Origin: Methanospirillum hungatei JF-1
GTDB lineage: Archaea; Halobacteriota; Methanomicrobia; Methanomicrobiales; Methanospirillaceae
DNA length: 64,000 nt
Assembly: GCF_000013445.1 (NCBI RefSeq)
Contig: NC_007796.1
Location: 2,764,936 to 2,828,935 of the forward strand
Direction of reading: 5' to 3'
Positions 51,855-60,852 of the stretch are shown piece after piece. The notes beneath the pieces are model-generated. The model made no database searches. It was not told the origin of the DNA and saw nothing but the letters and a program-made list of their open reading frames with translations. Each line of letters begins with the position of its first letter. Position 1 is the first letter of the stretch. The position numbers and the translations under genes are program-made.

Positions 51855-52771
51855 TTGGAAACAACCAGTGTCGATCACTATTCTGATAATATTTTCAGGG
51901 ATTCTTTATTTAGCGTTGGGCATACTCCAGAAATTCCTGAAATTCGATGGAACGATGGGAAAGGTTCATACATTATCTGTGGTGATGGACTCACAATATT
52001 GGAAAAATTGCCCGATTCTTTTATTCAAACTGTTATAACGAGTCCCCCATATTATGGGATGAGGGATTATAGAATCCCTGGACAGATCGGTGCCGAAAGG
52101 TATCTTGATGATTATATTGCCCATCTTGTTGCCGTATTCAGGGAGGTGAGACGGACTCTTACAGACGATGGAACGATATGGATCAATATTGGTGATACCT
52201 ATACAAGTGGTAACCGTAAAACCAGGGATTCTGATAAGAAAAATCCTGCCCGAAAGATGGATTATAGGCCACCAACACCTGAAGGTCTGAAACCTAAAGA
52301 CCTCATTGGTATCCCATGGAGATGGCCCTTGCTCTTCTCGAAGATGGTTGGTATCTCCGGTCGGACATTATTTGGCATAAACCAAATTGCCAACCTGAGT
52401 CTGTAAAAGATCGTCCTACGAGATCACATGAGTATGTATTTTTGCTTTCAAAAAATGAAAGATATTATTATAATCATTCTGTTATGAAAGAACCGGATTC
52501 GAAAGGTGATGGCCTTCGAAATCTTCGTACAGTATGGTCAATACATACTGTTCCGAATGCGTATGATCATTCCGCAATTTTCCCTGAAGGATTAATAGAG
52601 CCATGTGTGTTAGGTGGATCAAAAGAAGGTAACATTGTACTTGATCCCTTTTTTGGGACAGGGACAGTAGGGATCGTAAGTCGAAGATTAGGTCGGTGTT
52701 TTCTAGGAATTGAATTGAATCCCGATTTTATTAATATTAGCTTGAATAGATTATCCCAACAAACACTATGA
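51855..52771 (+). pseudogene. DNA methyltransferase (SPPY type, N4-cytosine-like), frameshifted
   Basis: Two overlapping frames together make one methyltransferase of about 305 residues. The first (51855 to about 52322) has the catalytic TSPPYYGMRDY and the target-region acids. The second (from about 52322) continues ALLEDGWYLRSDIIWHKPN and the SAM-binding FFGTGTVG. The break fits one missing base near 52322: the frame reads TGG AGA TGG where AGA ATG GCC would continue the protein. The only start is a TTG without a ribosome site, so the N-terminus may be lost too. It overlaps the next ORF by four nt (ATGA), the arrangement of a restriction-modification operon. The gene looks inactive unless this is a sequencing error. 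Confidence 0.7.
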
Positions 52772-53220: not shown

Positions 53221-55013
53221 GGTAAATGTTAAATTATAAAGCTTAACTTTATATCTGAGAAGTGTACATATATATGGGATGATCGCTCCGACACATCAAA
53301 TTGAACACATCGGCGGAATCCCATATATCTTTGAAACATTAAAAGAACTTCAAATCATACGAATTTTGAATGAGGTATATTCGCCTCACAGAAACTGGGT
53401 GGGTTTGCCGATTGGTGAAACGATTGCCATTTGGATCTGCTACTGCCTGACCGAAAATGATCATCGTATGTGTCCCTTGGAGAAGTGGGTTACTACCAAA
53501 AAAAATTTACTGGAAAAATTGATTGGTTTTCAATTTAGTCCAAAATGCTTTACTGATGACCATTTGGCTCGTATATTATCTCTATTGCACAATAATGAAC
53601 TTTGGAACCGATTTGAATCTGAATTAAATCGTTCTACACTGCGTATATATGGTTTAACGGATGAAAACATCGTCCGTCTTGATATGACAACAGTAAACAG
53701 CAATGGAATTATCGATAAAAACGGATTAATACAATTTGGCAACTCAAAAGATGACGCCTCCCTCCCTCAAATAAAAATCGTACTTTCAGTGCTTGATGTG
53801 CTGGGTTTGCCCCTCACCGTTAGTGTAGTCCCTGGAAATTGTGCTGATGATCCTCTCTATATCCCTGCAATGGAAAAGGTGAAAAAATCTACGGGACAAT
53901 CTGGATTACTTTTTGTGGGAGATTGCAAAATGGGTGCCATAGCAACTCGTTTGTATACGACTATCAATAATGACTTTTATTTATGCCCGTTATCAGAAGT
54001 CTCTCATCCTACTCAGGAAATTTATTCTGCAATCATAGCACATCAGGAGTCTAATCTTTCCTTCACACAAGTTTCACGATCGTACTATGATGGAAGCGAT
54101 GCGATTATAGCCGAAGGATTTGAGAAAAAAATATCTCATTCAATGGAATATGAGGGGAAAATCATAACCTGGGAGGAACGGCTAATCTACGCAAAATCAT
54201 TTGCTCATGCAAATAAATTCAGATTATCACTTGAAGAGCAAGTAAAAAAAGCTTTCTTTGAGATAAATTCAATGAATAAAAGAGGAAAGGGAAAGAAAAT
54301 TTACCGAACAATCGAGGAAGCAAAAGAAAAAGTACATGCTATTCTTGGAGATAAGGGATTAACAGCGGTATTCGAAGTTGAGTATATCGAGCATATTAGT
54401 AATACTCCAAAACGAAAATACGGAAACAATCCCGCCAGAATTGAACAATCGACGAGAATTGAGGTTAAACCAACTATTAACTTGCAAGCCCTTCAACAAG
54501 CGCAGGAATTATCAGGATGGAGGGTATATGTAACAAATAAACCAGAAAATGAATTATCGATGCAAGATGTTGTTCTGACTTACCGTGATCAGTATATCAT
54601 AGAGCATCAATTTCATCGGCTGAAGGGAAAGGCACTTTCACTTGCCCCAATGTTTATTCAACGAGATGACAGAATTGATGGTTTAGTGAAGTTTTTGACT
54701 ATTGTAATGAGACCACTTGTTATTATTGAGAAAAAAGTCAGGGATTCGCTGAAAAGTAGAGGTCAGGGTTTGAGTGGTCTTTTCGAATATAATCCAACGA
54801 AAATAGTAAATAATCCTAAAACTGAAAGAATTATTGAGTTTTTCAAAGAGATTTATTTGTTAGTTTCATTTTATGGTGAACAGGTTTTTTACACAATTAC
54901 TGGGATAAATCAAAAGCATCGAGAGATTTTAAATCTGATGAATGTTGATATTAGTGTTTATACTCAATTGGGATCAATTCAGGAATCTGAATTTAAGATC
55001 AGCGAACGGTGAG
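53198..55013 (+). mobile_element. insertion sequence, IS1634/IS4-like, 1816 bp
   Basis: The ends are imperfect inverted repeats of 19 bp: CTTACCTTTCGCTGATCTT at 53198-53216 and, reverse complemented, CTCACCGTTCGCTGATCTT at 54995-55013, two mismatches. A 5-bp direct repeat, ATCAG, flanks the element (53193-53197 and 55014-55018), as expected of target duplication. The transposase stop codon lies inside the right repeat. The whole element is more AT-rich than the chromosome around it. Flanks and repeats being intact, insertion appears recent. Confidence 0.9.
53279..55012 (+). CDS. IS1634-like DDE transposase
   Basis: A 577-residue transposase. The catalytic acids lie in DMTTVNSNG (first Asp), LLFVGDCKMG (second Asp) and the Y-x2-... 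signature YRDQYIIEHQFHRLKG (Glu). The length suits the long transposases of the IS1634 group. No frame interruption is seen, so the element may be active. The ATG is at 53279, 81 nt from the left end. TGA at 55010-55012 overlaps the right inverted repeat. Confidence 0.9.
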   Translation: MIAPTHQIEHIGGIPYIFETLKELQIIRILNEVYSPHRNWVGLPIGETIAIWICYCLTENDHRMCPLEKWVTTKKNLLEKLIGFQFSPKCFTDDHLARILSLLHNNELWNRFESELNRSTLRIYGLTDENIVRLDMTTVNSNGIIDKNGLIQFGNSKDDASLPQIKIVLSVLDVLGLPLTVSVVPGNCADDPLYIPAMEKVKKSTGQSGLLFVGDCKMGAIATRLYTTINNDFYLCPLSEVSHPTQEIYSAIIAHQESNLSFTQVSRSYYDGSDAIIAEGFEKKISHSMEYEGKIITWEERLIYAKSFAHANKFRLSLEEQVKKAFFEINSMNKRGKGKKIYRTIEEAKEKVHAILGDKGLTAVFEVEYIEHISNTPKRKYGNNPARIEQSTRIEVKPTINLQALQQAQELSGWRVYVTNKPENELSMQDVVLTYRDQYIIEHQFHRLKGKALSLAPMFIQRDDRIDGLVKFLTIVMRPLVIIEKKVRDSLKSRGQGLSGLFEYNPTKIVNNPKTERIIEFFKEIYLLVSFYGEQVFYTITGINQKHREILNLMNVDISVYTQLGSIQESEFKISER

Positions 55014-55410: not shown

Positions 55411-55986
55411 TCAGAGTTGTATAGAAGCAAGTGCTTCTTTTACTTTTGGTCTCCAGGATTCAAATGGCCGCTGATATATTTCAGCAGCTTTCTGATGATC
55501 GGGATCGTCATTATTCTTCTCAATCCGGTCCAGCGTAAGCCGGGCAGTATCCAGAATCCAGCAGTCAACCACAGTTTTATCAACGGCGGTAATAGATTCT
55601 GCCCTGATTGATACCAGGTTTCTGCCATCAGGGGCCTGAAACACCCCAGGCTTTCCAATAATGACTACATAGGATGGTGATTCGATCGATGAGATCTGAT
55701 GAAGCGCTTCGGGTTGGTAGCTCCCGGCACTCACAAAAAAGATTCCGGTGGGATCCATGACCCTGATCTGATAAAAGACCGCCTCTCCTTCAGACTTCTT
55801 CTTTTCAGTCAGAGTTCCGGCGATGAATACACGATTACACCGTTCTCCAGTTGGAAGCAGTATATAGGTCGGGCTTTTGTCATCCGTCCCTTCTCTGAAA
55901 TGATGGTGAGCTTCCCGAAGTTCTGCCGCAAAGACTCTTTTCGCTGACTCGCGTTCAAATCTTCGGTTTGCTGAGTTGTCACTCAT
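55411..55986 (-). CDS. RPA-associated protein (archaeal RPA small-subunit family)
   Basis: A 191-residue protein. An N-terminal basic helix (RRFERESAKRVFAAELREAHHHF) is followed by an OB-fold (VFIAGTLTEKKKSE..VFYQIRVMDPTGIFFVSAGSYQ) and a C-terminal helix. It matches the archaeal proteins that always follow RPA and form its complex. The ATG at 55986 overlaps the end of rpa by eight nt (ATGAGTGA). The in-frame ATG at 56004 is less likely. Confidence 0.8.
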   Translation of the reverse strand: MSDNSANRRFERESAKRVFAAELREAHHHFREGTDDKSPTYILLPTGERCNRVFIAGTLTEKKKSEGEAVFYQIRVMDPTGIFFVSAGSYQPEALHQISSIESPSYVVIIGKPGVFQAPDGRNLVSIRAESITAVDKTVVDCWILDTARLTLDRIEKNNDDPDHQKAAEIYQRPFESWRPKVKEALASIQL

Positions 55987-57808
55987 GTGATCCACCCTCC
56001 GCACGGTTCATCAGTTCGGCCAGCATCCCAGCATCAAAAGCCTGAAATTCGCAATTATAGGCAACCAGGCGATTATCAAACACTTTGCCCCGGCAGATAA
56101 GATACCGCCCCAGAATCTGTTCATTGACATGATAAAATACGGTATCAAGACCAAGAGGGTTATTCTCTGCCATCTCCTGTGCCGTGATGAGGTTTAATCC
56201 GGTCAGTTCTTCAACACCCTCCCGTGAAATTATCGTATCATAGGTCTTCTGACCGTCATCAAGCCACCCTTTAACCCTGAGATCATAGATATAATTCGGC
56301 TGAATTTCATGGATCGGACAATAATTCTGCCTTGAGAGGACACGACCACATCCCTCAACCGGACATCGCTTGATAAGACCTGATCCTGGAGACAGGTGGA
56401 CAAATGCCCCCTTTACTTCCTCATTCGGAGATCTCACCTGAATAGTGGCGCCTTCGTCTGGAAGAAGGGTTGCCCCGTTCAGGGTTACAGATAACCGGCC
56501 GTTGAACTCATCAACTGATGCATAATAGATACTATAGACCATGTCCGGTACCAGTCTCTGGGCCATATCATCCTTCCAGGTGACGAACCGGATAGTCCCC
56601 GACTCATCGCCCAAAAGGCCGCTCTGGAAGATGCGTTCTGAAGTATTTTCATATTCCTGGACAAGTTTTACCCGCAGACAGACGATTCCCGGCCCTGCCT
56701 GGGCGACCGGAATGATATTTGGTCTGATACTCCGGTCCTCCAGAAGTGGTGTCGCTGTACCAGGATTTATCTGCATGCTTAATGCCCCCCGGTACCGATC
56801 CACAACTGCCCCCTTTATTGCGTACCACTGATTTTCCATCAGGGGTTCTGCTCCCGGACTATTTCGGATGATAAACCTGACCGCTCCGGAATCATCAGCA
56901 AAAACACCCCGTTGAAGTATTTGATCAGAATATTGCTTCTCAATCGCCACTACCTTCCCCTCAACCAGGGCGACACCAGGTGATAATTCTCCAACCGGGG
57001 TCTTTTCGATGTCAGGCATTTCATCTCTGGATATGGGGGTGATTTTTGTCCCGCTATGAATTTTTATTGATAATTGCCCGTTAAACTCGTCTGATTCAAC
57101 AAGATCCAGCCGGTACCAGTGCCCTTGTTCAAGGAGCGGAGCATTGGCAGAGGCCCAAACGGTGAACCGGATAGTACCTGAATTATCTGCAAATATTCCA
57201 GACTGTGCAATTGAAGGAGACCGGGGTGGAAAGATGGTTGTGACCTCACCTTCAACAGATATCCATTGTTTTGGTTTTATCTCTGATAGCGGTGTGATCA
57301 CCGGTTCAGGAACAGAATCCGGAGAAAGTTCAGTTATGGTGGTTCCCGAATGAACTTTCAGACTTACCTGACCATTATATTCATCCGCTACCGCAGATTC
57401 GAGCCTGTACCATTTTCCCTGTTCCATGACCGGTGCATTTGCCTTTGCCCACACGGTAAACCGCATAGTCCCGCTTGAGTCCATTATTACCCCGCTTTGG
57501 GCTACTGATGGAGAGCGTGACGGGATTAAGGTAACTATCTGTCCTTCGACCGTTACCCATTGTTCGGCCTGGATCTCTGATATCGGTATTACAGAATCAG
57601 CATCCTGTTTTGACGGACCTGCTGATGGAAGTTCCATCCCAAATTGCCGGGCATAATCACCAATTATTGATCGTTCCGCTTCGGCTGGTGGGACAGAGAA
57701 TTCTTCTACAAACCGGTTGATCTTTTCCTCAAGTTTTGCCCGGTCAATTGGATGACCTGCTGCTGCAAATTTTTCGGAGATCCTGTCTGCGATTTCTTTG
57801 AGTTCCAT
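55979..57808 (-). CDS. replication protein A large subunit (multi-OB-fold, zinc finger)
   Basis: A 609-residue single-strand DNA-binding protein. An N-terminal helical domain (about 1-60) is followed by four OB-folds. The first two are strikingly similar to each other (each with VAQSG or IAQSG, SGTxRFTVWAxANAP, WYRL and LKVHSGT or IKIHSGT). Near residue 460 a Cys4/His-type zinc finger (CPVEGCGRV and YCPIHE) is placed before the last OB-fold. The ATG at 57808 is chosen because GGAG is five nt before it; 57856 would add 16 residues. A TATA-like box lies at 57841-57849. Confidence 0.9.
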   Translation of the reverse strand: MELKEIADRISEKFAAAGHPIDRAKLEEKINRFVEEFSVPPAEAERSIIGDYARQFGMELPSAGPSKQDADSVIPISEIQAEQWVTVEGQIVTLIPSRSPSVAQSGVIMDSSGTMRFTVWAKANAPVMEQGKWYRLESAVADEYNGQVSLKVHSGTTITELSPDSVPEPVITPLSEIKPKQWISVEGEVTTIFPPRSPSIAQSGIFADNSGTIRFTVWASANAPLLEQGHWYRLDLVESDEFNGQLSIKIHSGTKITPISRDEMPDIEKTPVGELSPGVALVEGKVVAIEKQYSDQILQRGVFADDSGAVRFIIRNSPGAEPLMENQWYAIKGAVVDRYRGALSMQINPGTATPLLEDRSIRPNIIPVAQAGPGIVCLRVKLVQEYENTSERIFQSGLLGDESGTIRFVTWKDDMAQRLVPDMVYSIYYASVDEFNGRLSVTLNGATLLPDEGATIQVRSPNEEVKGAFVHLSPGSGLIKRCPVEGCGRVLSRQNYCPIHEIQPNYIYDLRVKGWLDDGQKTYDTIISREGVEELTGLNLITAQEMAENNPLGLDTVFYHVNEQILGRYLICRGKVFDNRLVAYNCEFQAFDAGMLAELMNRAEGGSHE

Positions 57809-57897
57809 TTCATCTCCATAAGAAAGGTCAACAACAAGGGTATTTAAAGAAGACACCCGCGGGGTGAAAGTGAAAACATCAATAAATTATAGATATT

Positions 57898-58809
57898 TTA
57901 GAGAGTTTTGGAATATAAAGACTTTAATTCAAGTAAAGTGGCTTCAGGATTTCTCAAAAGATGGCTGGTTACCAATGGGTGGTGATTTAATAAACAGCGG
58001 GTGCATGCCCAGACCGGTGCCCGTTCAGATTTTAAAATCCAATCACCAAGGGTTGTATCTCCACACGGGTAGAGCGGACAGTAACACAGATCACATCGCT
58101 GCCCCTGATAATGACACGGATAATAGGGGCAATGCTCTTTCTCCCATAATACCCAGTGAGGTCCGCCGATACCTGAACGGATAAAAAATGAGGGCTTTTT
58201 CTTCTTCGTATCAGACTGGCGAAGCAGAGCTTTTGTTACACCTGTATACACTGTTTCATGAATCCGCTGTCCGGTTTCTGTTGCACTCCCTGCGTACCTG
58301 ATGGTCCCCTGGCCTTCAGATGCGATGATGACCGCGTCAGTGACCGTTCCTGCAAAATCATAACCGGCATCACGAAGAGCGAGGACTTTTGCTTCGGTCG
58401 TAGTAATTACCGCATCGACCAGAGCCTGATCATGAAAATCCCGGGTCAGGACAATAATATTGATCGTCCCGGGAGCAGGATTTGGTACATCCTCCGATGC
58501 CGGTACTGATGACTGCACCGGATCAGGGTGGGTTATCCCTGCCGTTACAAAGACCATCATGGTATCCCAGGAAAGAATACAGAGCGTATTCATATCAACA
58601 GCCGTCAGAAGACCAGCAGTGTCCGTATATGAAAGACCCAGAGAATATGAGAGCAACTCCAGCTCCTTCTCCGGATCATGAGAAAAGTCGTTTTGAACCT
58701 GATGATTTATCAGCGTTGTACAATTTCGAATGCCACCATGAGGTCCGGAACTGCAGATTCGAAACTTCCCACGTACGATAAGGGAATTTGATCTGAGGAA
58801 ATACCTCAT
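57898..58809 (-). CDS. cbiZ: adenosylcobinamide amidohydrolase CbiZ with C-terminal Cys-rich domain
   Basis: A 303-residue protein. The first 215 residues match CbiZ, which cleaves adenosylcobinamide to adenosylcobyric acid for corrinoid salvage; seen in VFVTAGITHP, TINIIVLTRDFHDQALVDAVITTTEAK and a TGTxTDAVIIAS-like segment. The last 80 residues hold a separate Cys-rich domain with CPYYPCH, CDLCYCPLYPC and CTRC, which probably binds zinc or an iron-sulfur cluster. The start is set by the ATGA overlap with the upstream glycyl-radical module gene. It is cytoplasmic. Confidence 0.87.
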   Translation of the reverse strand: MRYFLRSNSLIVRGKFRICSSGPHGGIRNCTTLINHQVQNDFSHDPEKELELLSYSLGLSYTDTAGLLTAVDMNTLCILSWDTMMVFVTAGITHPDPVQSSVPASEDVPNPAPGTINIIVLTRDFHDQALVDAVITTTEAKVLALRDAGYDFAGTVTDAVIIASEGQGTIRYAGSATETGQRIHETVYTGVTKALLRQSDTKKKKPSFFIRSGIGGPHWVLWEKEHCPYYPCHYQGQRCDLCYCPLYPCGDTTLGDWILKSERAPVWACTRCLLNHHPLVTSHLLRNPEATLLELKSLYSKTL

Positions 58810-59168
58810 GTGATGCTATAACGCTGACGGTCTTTTAATTCCTGTTGTTTGCCTGCATTCCAGCCGGACACGTCCTGCAGGTATCCGGTAACCCTGCTAA
58901 TCTGCACAACGTCATGACATCCACATTCAGGGCAGACCGGTTCACCACAGAGCGGGCAGTATTCTATTGTTGCAGCAATCTCATGTGAACAGTCACAGTT
59001 GTCAAGGGGGCACATGATCTCCAGGTTCACATCACCGCAGACAGGACACGGACTTTCATCAACAATCAGGTGGCAGGTGTGACATTTATATCTTCGTTCA
59101 CTTTCAGGGATCTCCTCCTTGCAGGAGTACTTCTCTGAAAGAGCCAGTTGTTCCTTGGTCCAGTTCAT
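58806..59168 (-). CDS. standalone NrdD-type C-terminal module (zinc ribbon and glycyl-radical motif)
   Basis: A 120-residue protein. Two Cys-pair units (C29/C32/C41/C44 and C71/C74/C79/C82) precede SRVTGYLQDVSGWNAGKQQE, whose VTGYL and GWNAGK segments match the glycyl-radical end of class III anaerobic ribonucleotide reductase (radical Gly95). The catalytic 600-residue body of NrdD is not in this gene or this window. It could be a spare radical domain, the split part of a two-gene NrdD, or an NrdD-derived protein with another role. It ends with a four-nt overlap into cbiZ and starts 17 nt after pyrF. Confidence 0.8.
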   Translation of the reverse strand: MNWTKEQLALSEKYSCKEEIPESERRYKCHTCHLIVDESPCPVCGDVNLEIMCPLDNCDCSHEIAATIEYCPLCGEPVCPECGCHDVVQISRVTGYLQDVSGWNAGKQQELKDRQRYSIT

Positions 59169-59184: not shown

Positions 59185-59862
59185 TCATTCCCTTAATGGA
59201 TAGGGAAGATGAGGGTTCGTTCCGCGAAGACTTCTGAACTGTGCATATTGCTGCGCCGCACCGGCAGGATCTGCAGACTCGTAAATTGCTCTACCAACGA
59301 TAATTCCATCCACGATTCCTGCTATTGCTGATGGATCCCCGCCCTGTGCACCAACACCGGGTGACAGGATCTTTCTGGTGCCGATGAGAGTGCGCAACAT
59401 CTGTGTCCGTTCAGGTCGTGTAGCTGGAGCAATAATCCCATCCGCCCCGGTTTCGCAGACAAGTGCAGCAATCCGCTCGGCAATGCCCCCATGGAAAAAG
59501 TCTACCGCACCAGGATGGCTCATCTCAGTGACGACATAGCACTCTCCCCCATGATCATGAGCAGTATCTACACAGGCGAGCACAGAATCCCTGCCGACAA
59601 AGCCGTGACAGATAATTCCTGAAAACCCATGAGAAAAAACTTCCTCGGCGATAAGCCGGCTTGTATTAGGAATATCAGCCACCTTGAAATCGGCAATAAG
59701 GGGAAGTCCCCCGGCTGATAATTCGTCAGCTATCGTAAGACCTGCTGCCAGAACCAGGGGATAGCCTATCTTTATCGCATCCAGATATGGTCCAGTCTTC
59801 TCTGCAATCGACACCGCTGCATCACGGGTGCCTACATCCAGGGCAAGGATTACTTCGGTCAT
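59185..59862 (-). CDS. pyrF: orotidine 5-phosphate decarboxylase
   Basis: A 225-residue TIM-barrel enzyme of UMP synthesis. The catalytic DFKVADIPNT (Asp-x-Lys-x2-Asp) is complete. ILSPGVGAQGGDPS and IIVGRAIYESADP bind the phosphate. Full length. Directly follows dys (TAA then ATG with no gap), so both are on one message. Confidence 0.96.
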   Translation of the reverse strand: MTEVILALDVGTRDAAVSIAEKTGPYLDAIKIGYPLVLAAGLTIADELSAGGLPLIADFKVADIPNTSRLIAEEVFSHGFSGIICHGFVGRDSVLACVDTAHDHGGECYVVTEMSHPGAVDFFHGGIAERIAALVCETGADGIIAPATRPERTQMLRTLIGTRKILSPGVGAQGGDPSAIAGIVDGIIVGRAIYESADPAGAAQQYAQFRSLRGTNPHLPYPLRE

Positions 59863-60783
59863 TTATTTCTCCAGAACTGCTGACATGATAAGTGGGAAGG
59901 TTATCGTTGCATCACCATACACCGTAACCGTCTGTGCATCCTCGTCAACCTTTCCCCAGGATCTGGCTTCATCAAGAGTCGCACCAGAGAGACCACCAAG
60001 ATCAGGCCGGTCTCCGGTCAGTTGCACGGCATAGGTAAAACCTTTTGGTGTCATGAGCATGCTCTGGAGGATATAATTCTTCGGAACACCGCCTCCGACA
60101 AAGAACGCACCAGCGATGTCTGCTGAAAAACACCGGTCCATGATTTTATCCATGTCACCAAATGCGTCAACGACTATCTTGTGGGTCTGACGGTATAACC
60201 AGAACTGCAGCCCAATCATCGAGTCCTGAACTGCAGGACAAAACACCGGGATCTTCTTTCTGGCCGCCGTCGCAAGGATACCTGAATTGAGGTGAGAACC
60301 GATATGGGCAAGGAGATCCGTGATCGATATGACGGTACCATCAGGAATTTTTGAGAGGATGTCCTGCATAAACTCCTCAAATTTTATGAATGAATCATTC
60401 GGGAGATAGACATCATAAATCCGGTTAATCTCATCATGCCGCAGCTCAATATCGTTGCATTTCTCCGTTCCCCGGAAATGATGGCATCCGATTGCTTCTA
60501 TAATATCATGAGTCAGGTTGGCACCGGTTGACACCAGAACATCAATGTATCCTGCTTCCATAAGGTCAGATACAATACCACCCATTCCAGCGGGAACCAT
60601 CGCTCCGGCAAGACCAAAAAAGCGGGTTACCCGTTTATCCTGATACATCGTACCGGTTATGCTCACCGCCCGTGACAGGGCACCACCATTATACGCTCCA
60701 GCCTGCTCCATGGCACTGATGAGACTTTTTACTGTCATCCCAGGCTTAAGATGGACCTGTCGTACCGGCACATCACATTCCAT
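59863..60783 (-). CDS. dys: deoxyhypusine synthase
   Basis: An enzyme of about 306 residues that modifies the lysine of archaeal initiation factor 5A with spermidine. Markers are MTVKSLISAMEQAGAYNGG, LVSTGANLTHDIIEA, the substrate region of HLNSGILATAARKKIP, and FFVGGGVPKNYILQS with the active-site Lys. The ATG at 60783 gives the usual length; a TTG at 60804 would add seven residues. It is downstream of tiaS. Confidence 0.93.
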   Translation of the reverse strand: MECDVPVRQVHLKPGMTVKSLISAMEQAGAYNGGALSRAVSITGTMYQDKRVTRFFGLAGAMVPAGMGGIVSDLMEAGYIDVLVSTGANLTHDIIEAIGCHHFRGTEKCNDIELRHDEINRIYDVYLPNDSFIKFEEFMQDILSKIPDGTVISITDLLAHIGSHLNSGILATAARKKIPVFCPAVQDSMIGLQFWLYRQTHKIVVDAFGDMDKIMDRCFSADIAGAFFVGGGVPKNYILQSMLMTPKGFTYAVQLTGDRPDLGGLSGATLDEARSWGKVDEDAQTVTVYGDATITFPLIMSAVLEK

Positions 60784-60852
60784 ACTATATGTATGGGTGG
60801 TCAACTCCCAAGTACCTGACGTGCGAGGAAATGCGATCCCACCAGGTGAAAA

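Follow-up and report, generated by a model that had tools for sequence, protein, structure and literature searches.

A free-standing NrdD-type glycyl-radical protein as the probable detached radical subunit of a class III ribonucleotide reductase in Methanospirillum hungatei

Glycyl-radical enzymes are cut at their glycine upon exposure to oxygen. Small proteins of ~120 amino acids that copy the radical domain of a large enzyme are known from cells, i.e., GrcA (YfiD), and from viruses, i.e., Y06I of phage T4, and such spare parts have been validated for pyruvate formate-lyase (PFL) only, their existence for other glycyl-radical enzymes being posed as a question by the authors (PMC8683613). Ribonucleotide reductases (RNRs) encoded in pieces have also been described. 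The class II RNR of P. aeruginosa is split into NrdJa and NrdJb, with its C-terminal cysteine-rich domain on a gene of its own (PMC5704485, PMC9669993), and RNR genes of phages, including nrdD as well as nrdA, are broken by introns and homing endonucleases (PMC3653736). Within the class III enzymes, a QCCR/A motif in the finger loop marks the NrdD3 subgroup, i.e., the M. barkeri type (PMC9669993). The searchable literature, which mostly excludes subscription papers, yielded no report of a class III RNR split in cells, nor of a free NrdD-type radical domain. A first-pass annotation of this DNA had noted that such a gene seems little described.

In the current study, we analysed a window of 64,000 nucleotides of the genome of Methanospirillum hungatei JF-1 (C1:2764936-2828935), and the whole genome (3,544,738 bp, one contig) was searched. 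A minus-strand ORF at positions 58806-59168 of the window (ATG start, stop codon included) encodes a protein of 120 aa, the final ~45 residues of which are an NrdD-type glycyl-radical segment. Residues 63-117 of this standalone protein match positions 503-562 of the 562 in the Pfam family NRDD (PF13597; E 8.5e-14, above the curated cut-off), and residues 69-117 match positions 540-581 of the 581 in TIGR02487 (NrdD). In a profile search of the PDB, the best match was to the P. copri NrdD (PcNrdD), of which chain residues 697-736 align with residues 77-115 (E 2.4e-8). This alignment places Gly95, followed by Tyr96 within RVTGYL, opposite chain Gly715, which would be Gly711, the experimentally known radical glycine of PcNrdD, if the 743-residue chain has a 4-residue tag, an offset deduced from the chain length. 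The codon of the predicted radical Gly95 (within SRVTGYLQ) lies at 58884-58886 on the minus strand, and the residue is invariant in 30/30 aligned standalone proteins. A GWNAGK motif is also present, and the separate NrdD-type radical segment recognized by the first-pass annotation from these two motifs is thus confirmed by PF13597, TIGR02487 and the PcNrdD alignment.

The glycine loop and C-terminal tail (residues 78-117, GWNAGKQQELKDRQRY; 58818-58937, minus strand) match the ends of both PF13597 and TIGR02487. Immediately before the radical loop lies a putative zinc site, CPLC-x4-CPEC (residues 71-82; 58923-58958, minus strand), with invariant Cys71, Cys74, Cys79 and Cys82 in an arrangement unlike that of the fused NrdDs. 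A first CxxC...CxxC ribbon (residues 29-44; 59037-59084, minus strand) is conserved in Methanomicrobiales and not in Methanosarcinales-type relatives. Instead of the two Cys-pair units noted earlier, we counted four CxxC pairs (C29/C32, C41/C44, C71/C74 and C79/C82), plus further cysteines. Homologues occur across the order; that of one M. hungatei MAG is 97.5% identical, and pairs of Methanospirillum copies give dN/dS values of about 0.02-0.08 where computable, dS being often saturated. Since strong matches are present in 135 of the 149 genomes of the order that we compared (each at least 85% complete), and dN/dS is low, the standalone gene is not a product of chance.

Exactly two NRDD matches were found in the M. 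hungatei genome, one covering profile positions 1-513 and the other, in the standalone protein, 503-562. The former belongs to a 732-aa NrdD body encoded outside the window, about 260 kb away (C1:3083858-3085582), which scores over the cut-off with both PF13597 (447 bits) and TIGR02487 (476 bits). The coverage of TIGR02487 is complementary, 1-531 in the body and 540-581 in the standalone protein. The body retains the barrel and the active-site cysteines and terminates (...GYFAFTRDLTVCLHQFSEWDGK...) just short of the zinc site and the glycine loop, at the point where fused relatives continue into the zinc site and SRVTGY. Its own chain has no C-terminal glycyl-radical domain, which is found on the second gene, and the M. 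hungatei genome thus encodes two complementary pieces of NrdD. A frameshift or a hidden radical domain past the body stop was ruled out by the lack of a third NRDD match in the genome. The same profile search detected no full-length NrdD that retains its radical domain, which was part of what the first-pass annotation had named as refuting its reading. Because the only other NrdD in the genome has no radical segment, the earlier suggestion that the standalone protein is the second piece of a split NrdD holds for M. hungatei at the level of sequence.

The same truncation is seen in related bodies, all 31 C-termini that were read stopping about 27-32 residues past GYFAFTRD[LI]TV[CSA]. Split bodies keep 228 of the 253 columns that are invariant across 35 fused NrdDs, and 18 of the 25 lost columns fall after residue 699. 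The lost invariant residues S, R, T, G, Y, Q, V, G, W, N, K, E, L, R and Y are all found in the standalone protein, and the Cys at position 700, invariant in fused NrdDs, is Ser in most split bodies. Both QCC[AR] (QCCA at 411-414 in the M. hungatei body) and TPAE are retained in 31/31 split bodies; TPAE includes the equivalent of PcNrdD Glu581, the partner of Tyr712 that follows the radical Gly711. The AF2 model of the body is well defined up to about residue 696, the tail beyond being disordered, and the finger loop holding the active-site cysteines (402-421) is poorly ordered. In a Foldseek search, the best 36 PDB matches of this model were all class III RNRs. Besides, the body shows similarity to an ATP-cone, below the cut-off, and is adjoined by a gene for a Grx-like protein, with a weak Pfam match just under the cut-off. 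The first-pass annotation had proposed to look for nrdD and nrdG elsewhere in the genome; in addition to the body, the activase NrdG2 is encoded at C1:1931796 (over the cut-off). The M. hungatei body thereby resembles NrdD3 in its NRDD core, its QCCA loop, the NrdG2 in the genome and the adjacent Grx-like gene, and differs from it in that the radical domain forms a second chain, to which an N-terminal zinc-ribbon part belongs and whose cysteines are arranged differently. No PF02867 large subunit of class I/II RNRs was detected by profile search of the genome, and the split enzyme is the only RNR detected in this cell at the level of known families.

We conclude that the standalone protein very probably serves as the subunit bearing the radical in a split, anaerobic (class III) RNR. 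In the theoretical scheme that we propose, the 732-aa body would supply the nucleotide-binding barrel and the active-site cysteines, and the standalone protein would dock at its open C-terminal side and insert the glycine loop into the barrel. Such a complex is suggested by conserved residues on both sides, as Tyr96 would meet Glu582 of the body in a pair equivalent to Tyr712-Glu581 of PcNrdD. The radical-SAM activase NrdG2 would generate the radical on Gly95, and catalysis would involve its transfer to the active-site cysteine of the body in each turnover. The Grx-like protein encoded beside the body may deliver the electrons, a guess by analogy with the class III RNR of M. barkeri, for which electron delivery is reportedly of the Grx type.

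The points weighing against this assignment are the extra N-terminal zinc-ribbon part, which has no place in the scheme, the low confidence of the modelled loop, and the position of the gene, which is not beside nrdD or nrdG. Alternatively, the protein could act as an accessory or regulator of the zinc-ribbon kind, similar to the radical domain but devoid of a radical. The N-terminal half, long and conserved, has similarity to a double zinc ribbon, and the AF2 model gives the glycine loop a pLDDT of only about 41-57. However, the most conserved stretch of the standalone proteins is the radical loop itself, including SR[VI]TGY and GWNxxKxQELKDR, and the genome offers the body no other NrdD-type radical domain, which makes such an accessory function unlikely. 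An explanation of the similarity by the zinc ribbon alone, foreseen in the first-pass annotation, does not hold either, as NrdD ranks first among the hits and the alignment covers the glycine loop. A fold search with the standalone model returned no significant match, which we do not weigh against a radical function because the loop is of low confidence in the isolated chain.

The standalone protein could also be a spare part of the GrcA/YfiD type that stands in for the radical domain of a complete NrdD after cleavage by oxygen, rather than an obligatory subunit. Most of the matches across the phylum lie inside frames of 760-830 aa, i.e., fused NrdDs, and the standalone family occurs beside a full NrdD in Methanococcoides, in MAGs labelled ANME-2 and Alkanophaga, and in others. 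The full NrdD of Methanococcoides has 803-804 aa and is mostly accompanied by a second NrdD of 610-624 aa. The Methanococcoides standalone gene is under purifying selection (dN/dS about 0.06-0.24), and the copies of this genus, like those of Methanospirillum, behave like functional genes. The family is also encoded at 13 IMG/VR loci (L231-L239 and L241-L244), and no NrdD body was detected in the 12 IMG/VR records searched whole, which span 5-70 kb and may be fragments; a standalone protein in a virus without the body recalls T4, which carries Y06I for PFL. At least L243 and L235 are genuine viral contexts, because the gene lies between the terminase and portal genes in the former and near baseplate genes in the latter. 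In phage and plasmid isolate collections, NrdD-type hits were partial or weak and none was demonstrable as this standalone family; those inspected from Enterococcus and Oceanotoga phages were ordinary long NrdD genes. One further homologue (L134, genome G195), with a full NrdD in the same genome, is degenerate at the C-terminus past the Gly loop and resembles a decaying copy. Homologues were also observed in MAGs labelled WOR-3, unnamed bacterium and Ratteibacteria (L156, L157 and L158), where contamination or viral contigs are possible.

For M. hungatei itself, on the other hand, a spare-part function is quite improbable, as neither its genome nor its order offers a complete partner to repair, and the body is devoid of a radical domain; with no complete partner in the order, the standalone protein cannot be just a spare part there. 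The idea of a GrcA equivalent for NrdD, also raised in the first-pass annotation, is thus plausible for relatives with a full NrdD and for viruses, and hardly so for M. hungatei. The two systems also differ in that the present family is of the NrdD and not the PFL type, no PFL-type family being among the profile matches listed. A complete, repairable partner, as GrcA has, is present in Methanococcoides and others and absent from M. hungatei; the Methanomicrobiales partner no longer has a radical domain of its own, and the standalone protein would, judging from these sequences, be an obligatory subunit.

Within the order, NRDD matches were detected in 136/149 genomes, the body in 135 (some cut by contig ends) and both pieces in 134, weak standalone matches (E about 1e-4) in three members of the genus g25 being left out of the counts. 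NrdG2 is present in 134/149 and missing from genus g25 and two drafts. The 13 genomes of g25 encode no body, no standalone protein and no NrdG2, and have NrdJ-type PF02867 proteins; this co-loss, seen in one genus, was probably a single event. The two further genomes without a complete pair of body and standalone protein (G079 and G114) are drafts. In other genera, many NrdD bodies were found in open frames of 1200-2000 aa with an interrupted NRDD match, probably owing to inteins. PF02867 proteins are absent from 29 genomes, none of them in g25 and all in genera with the split NrdD, and in these the split enzyme is the only detected RNR because no PF02867 protein is present. The remaining 120/149 genomes match PF02867, i.e., most genomes of the order have NrdJ, so the split enzyme may be dispensable there, and this could be taken to mean that the body is dead or repurposed and that another, unrecognised pathway or reductase provides the deoxynucleotides. 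With no other detected RNR in 29 genomes, including M. hungatei, and 228/253 invariant columns retained, we regard such a scenario as highly improbable.

The gene order around the standalone gene is deoxyhypusine synthase (59863-60804), pyrF, coding for orotidine-5'-phosphate decarboxylase (59185-59862), the standalone gene, and cbiZ, coding for CbiZ with a cysteine-rich domain (57898-58809), all minus-strand genes with hardly any gap between them, with the cbiZ start codon and the standalone stop overlapping by 4 bases. The standalone gene, with pyrF directly upstream, sits in a pyrF/cbiZ operon, away from nrdD and nrdG; that pyrF and the standalone gene share one operon is probable. The order pyrF-standalone-cbiZ recurs at 45/50 loci, cbiZ being unrecognised in the remaining five, and the adjacency to a corrinoid gene noted in the first pass is thus real and conserved. 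A functional link to corrinoid salvage was also considered, the conserved gene order being its sole support. Nothing was found in favour of an artefact, i.e., a frameshift, misassembly or recent gene break, and with the same split in 134/149 genomes and the same gene order at 45/50 loci its probability is negligible. Elsewhere in the window, an archaeal RPA-like OB-fold protein is encoded downstream of the operon (55411-57856, minus strand), overlapped by a partner gene that has no Pfam match, and an N4/N6 DNA methylase is split over two overlapping frames (51855-52771 and 53279-55012) beside a DDE transposase.

Truncated bodies form one clade (support 0.94) nested within full-length NrdDs, with a family having a fused NrdD as its sister (support 1.0). 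In a tree of the radical domains (42 columns), 56 standalone and 53 fused domains part on a single branch (99/96); the interior is not resolved at this length, and the differing Cys pattern adds to the separation. A single origin of the standalone family is therefore likely. Compared with NrdJa and NrdJb, where NrdJb bears a terminal-reduction domain, the separated piece in M. hungatei would carry the radical, and compared with the sporadically broken phage genes, we observe one old split with the pieces about 260 kb apart and the small subunit re-made. Tentatively, these free-standing NrdD-type radical proteins of methanogens, their relatives and viruses may be one family that began as a spare part for oxygen-damaged NrdD, was borne by viruses as a means of maintaining or commandeering the host reductase, and turned into an obligatory subunit in the ancestor of the Methanomicrobiales once NrdD had lost its radical domain.

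Overall, a radical placed on a small, replaceable chain could make the reductase cheap to repair. The split into two proteins separates steps that a single chain makes difficult to study, and the family gives a testable case of a spare part for a reductase. The virus-borne copies further suggest a control of the DNA-precursor supply of the host via the radical piece.
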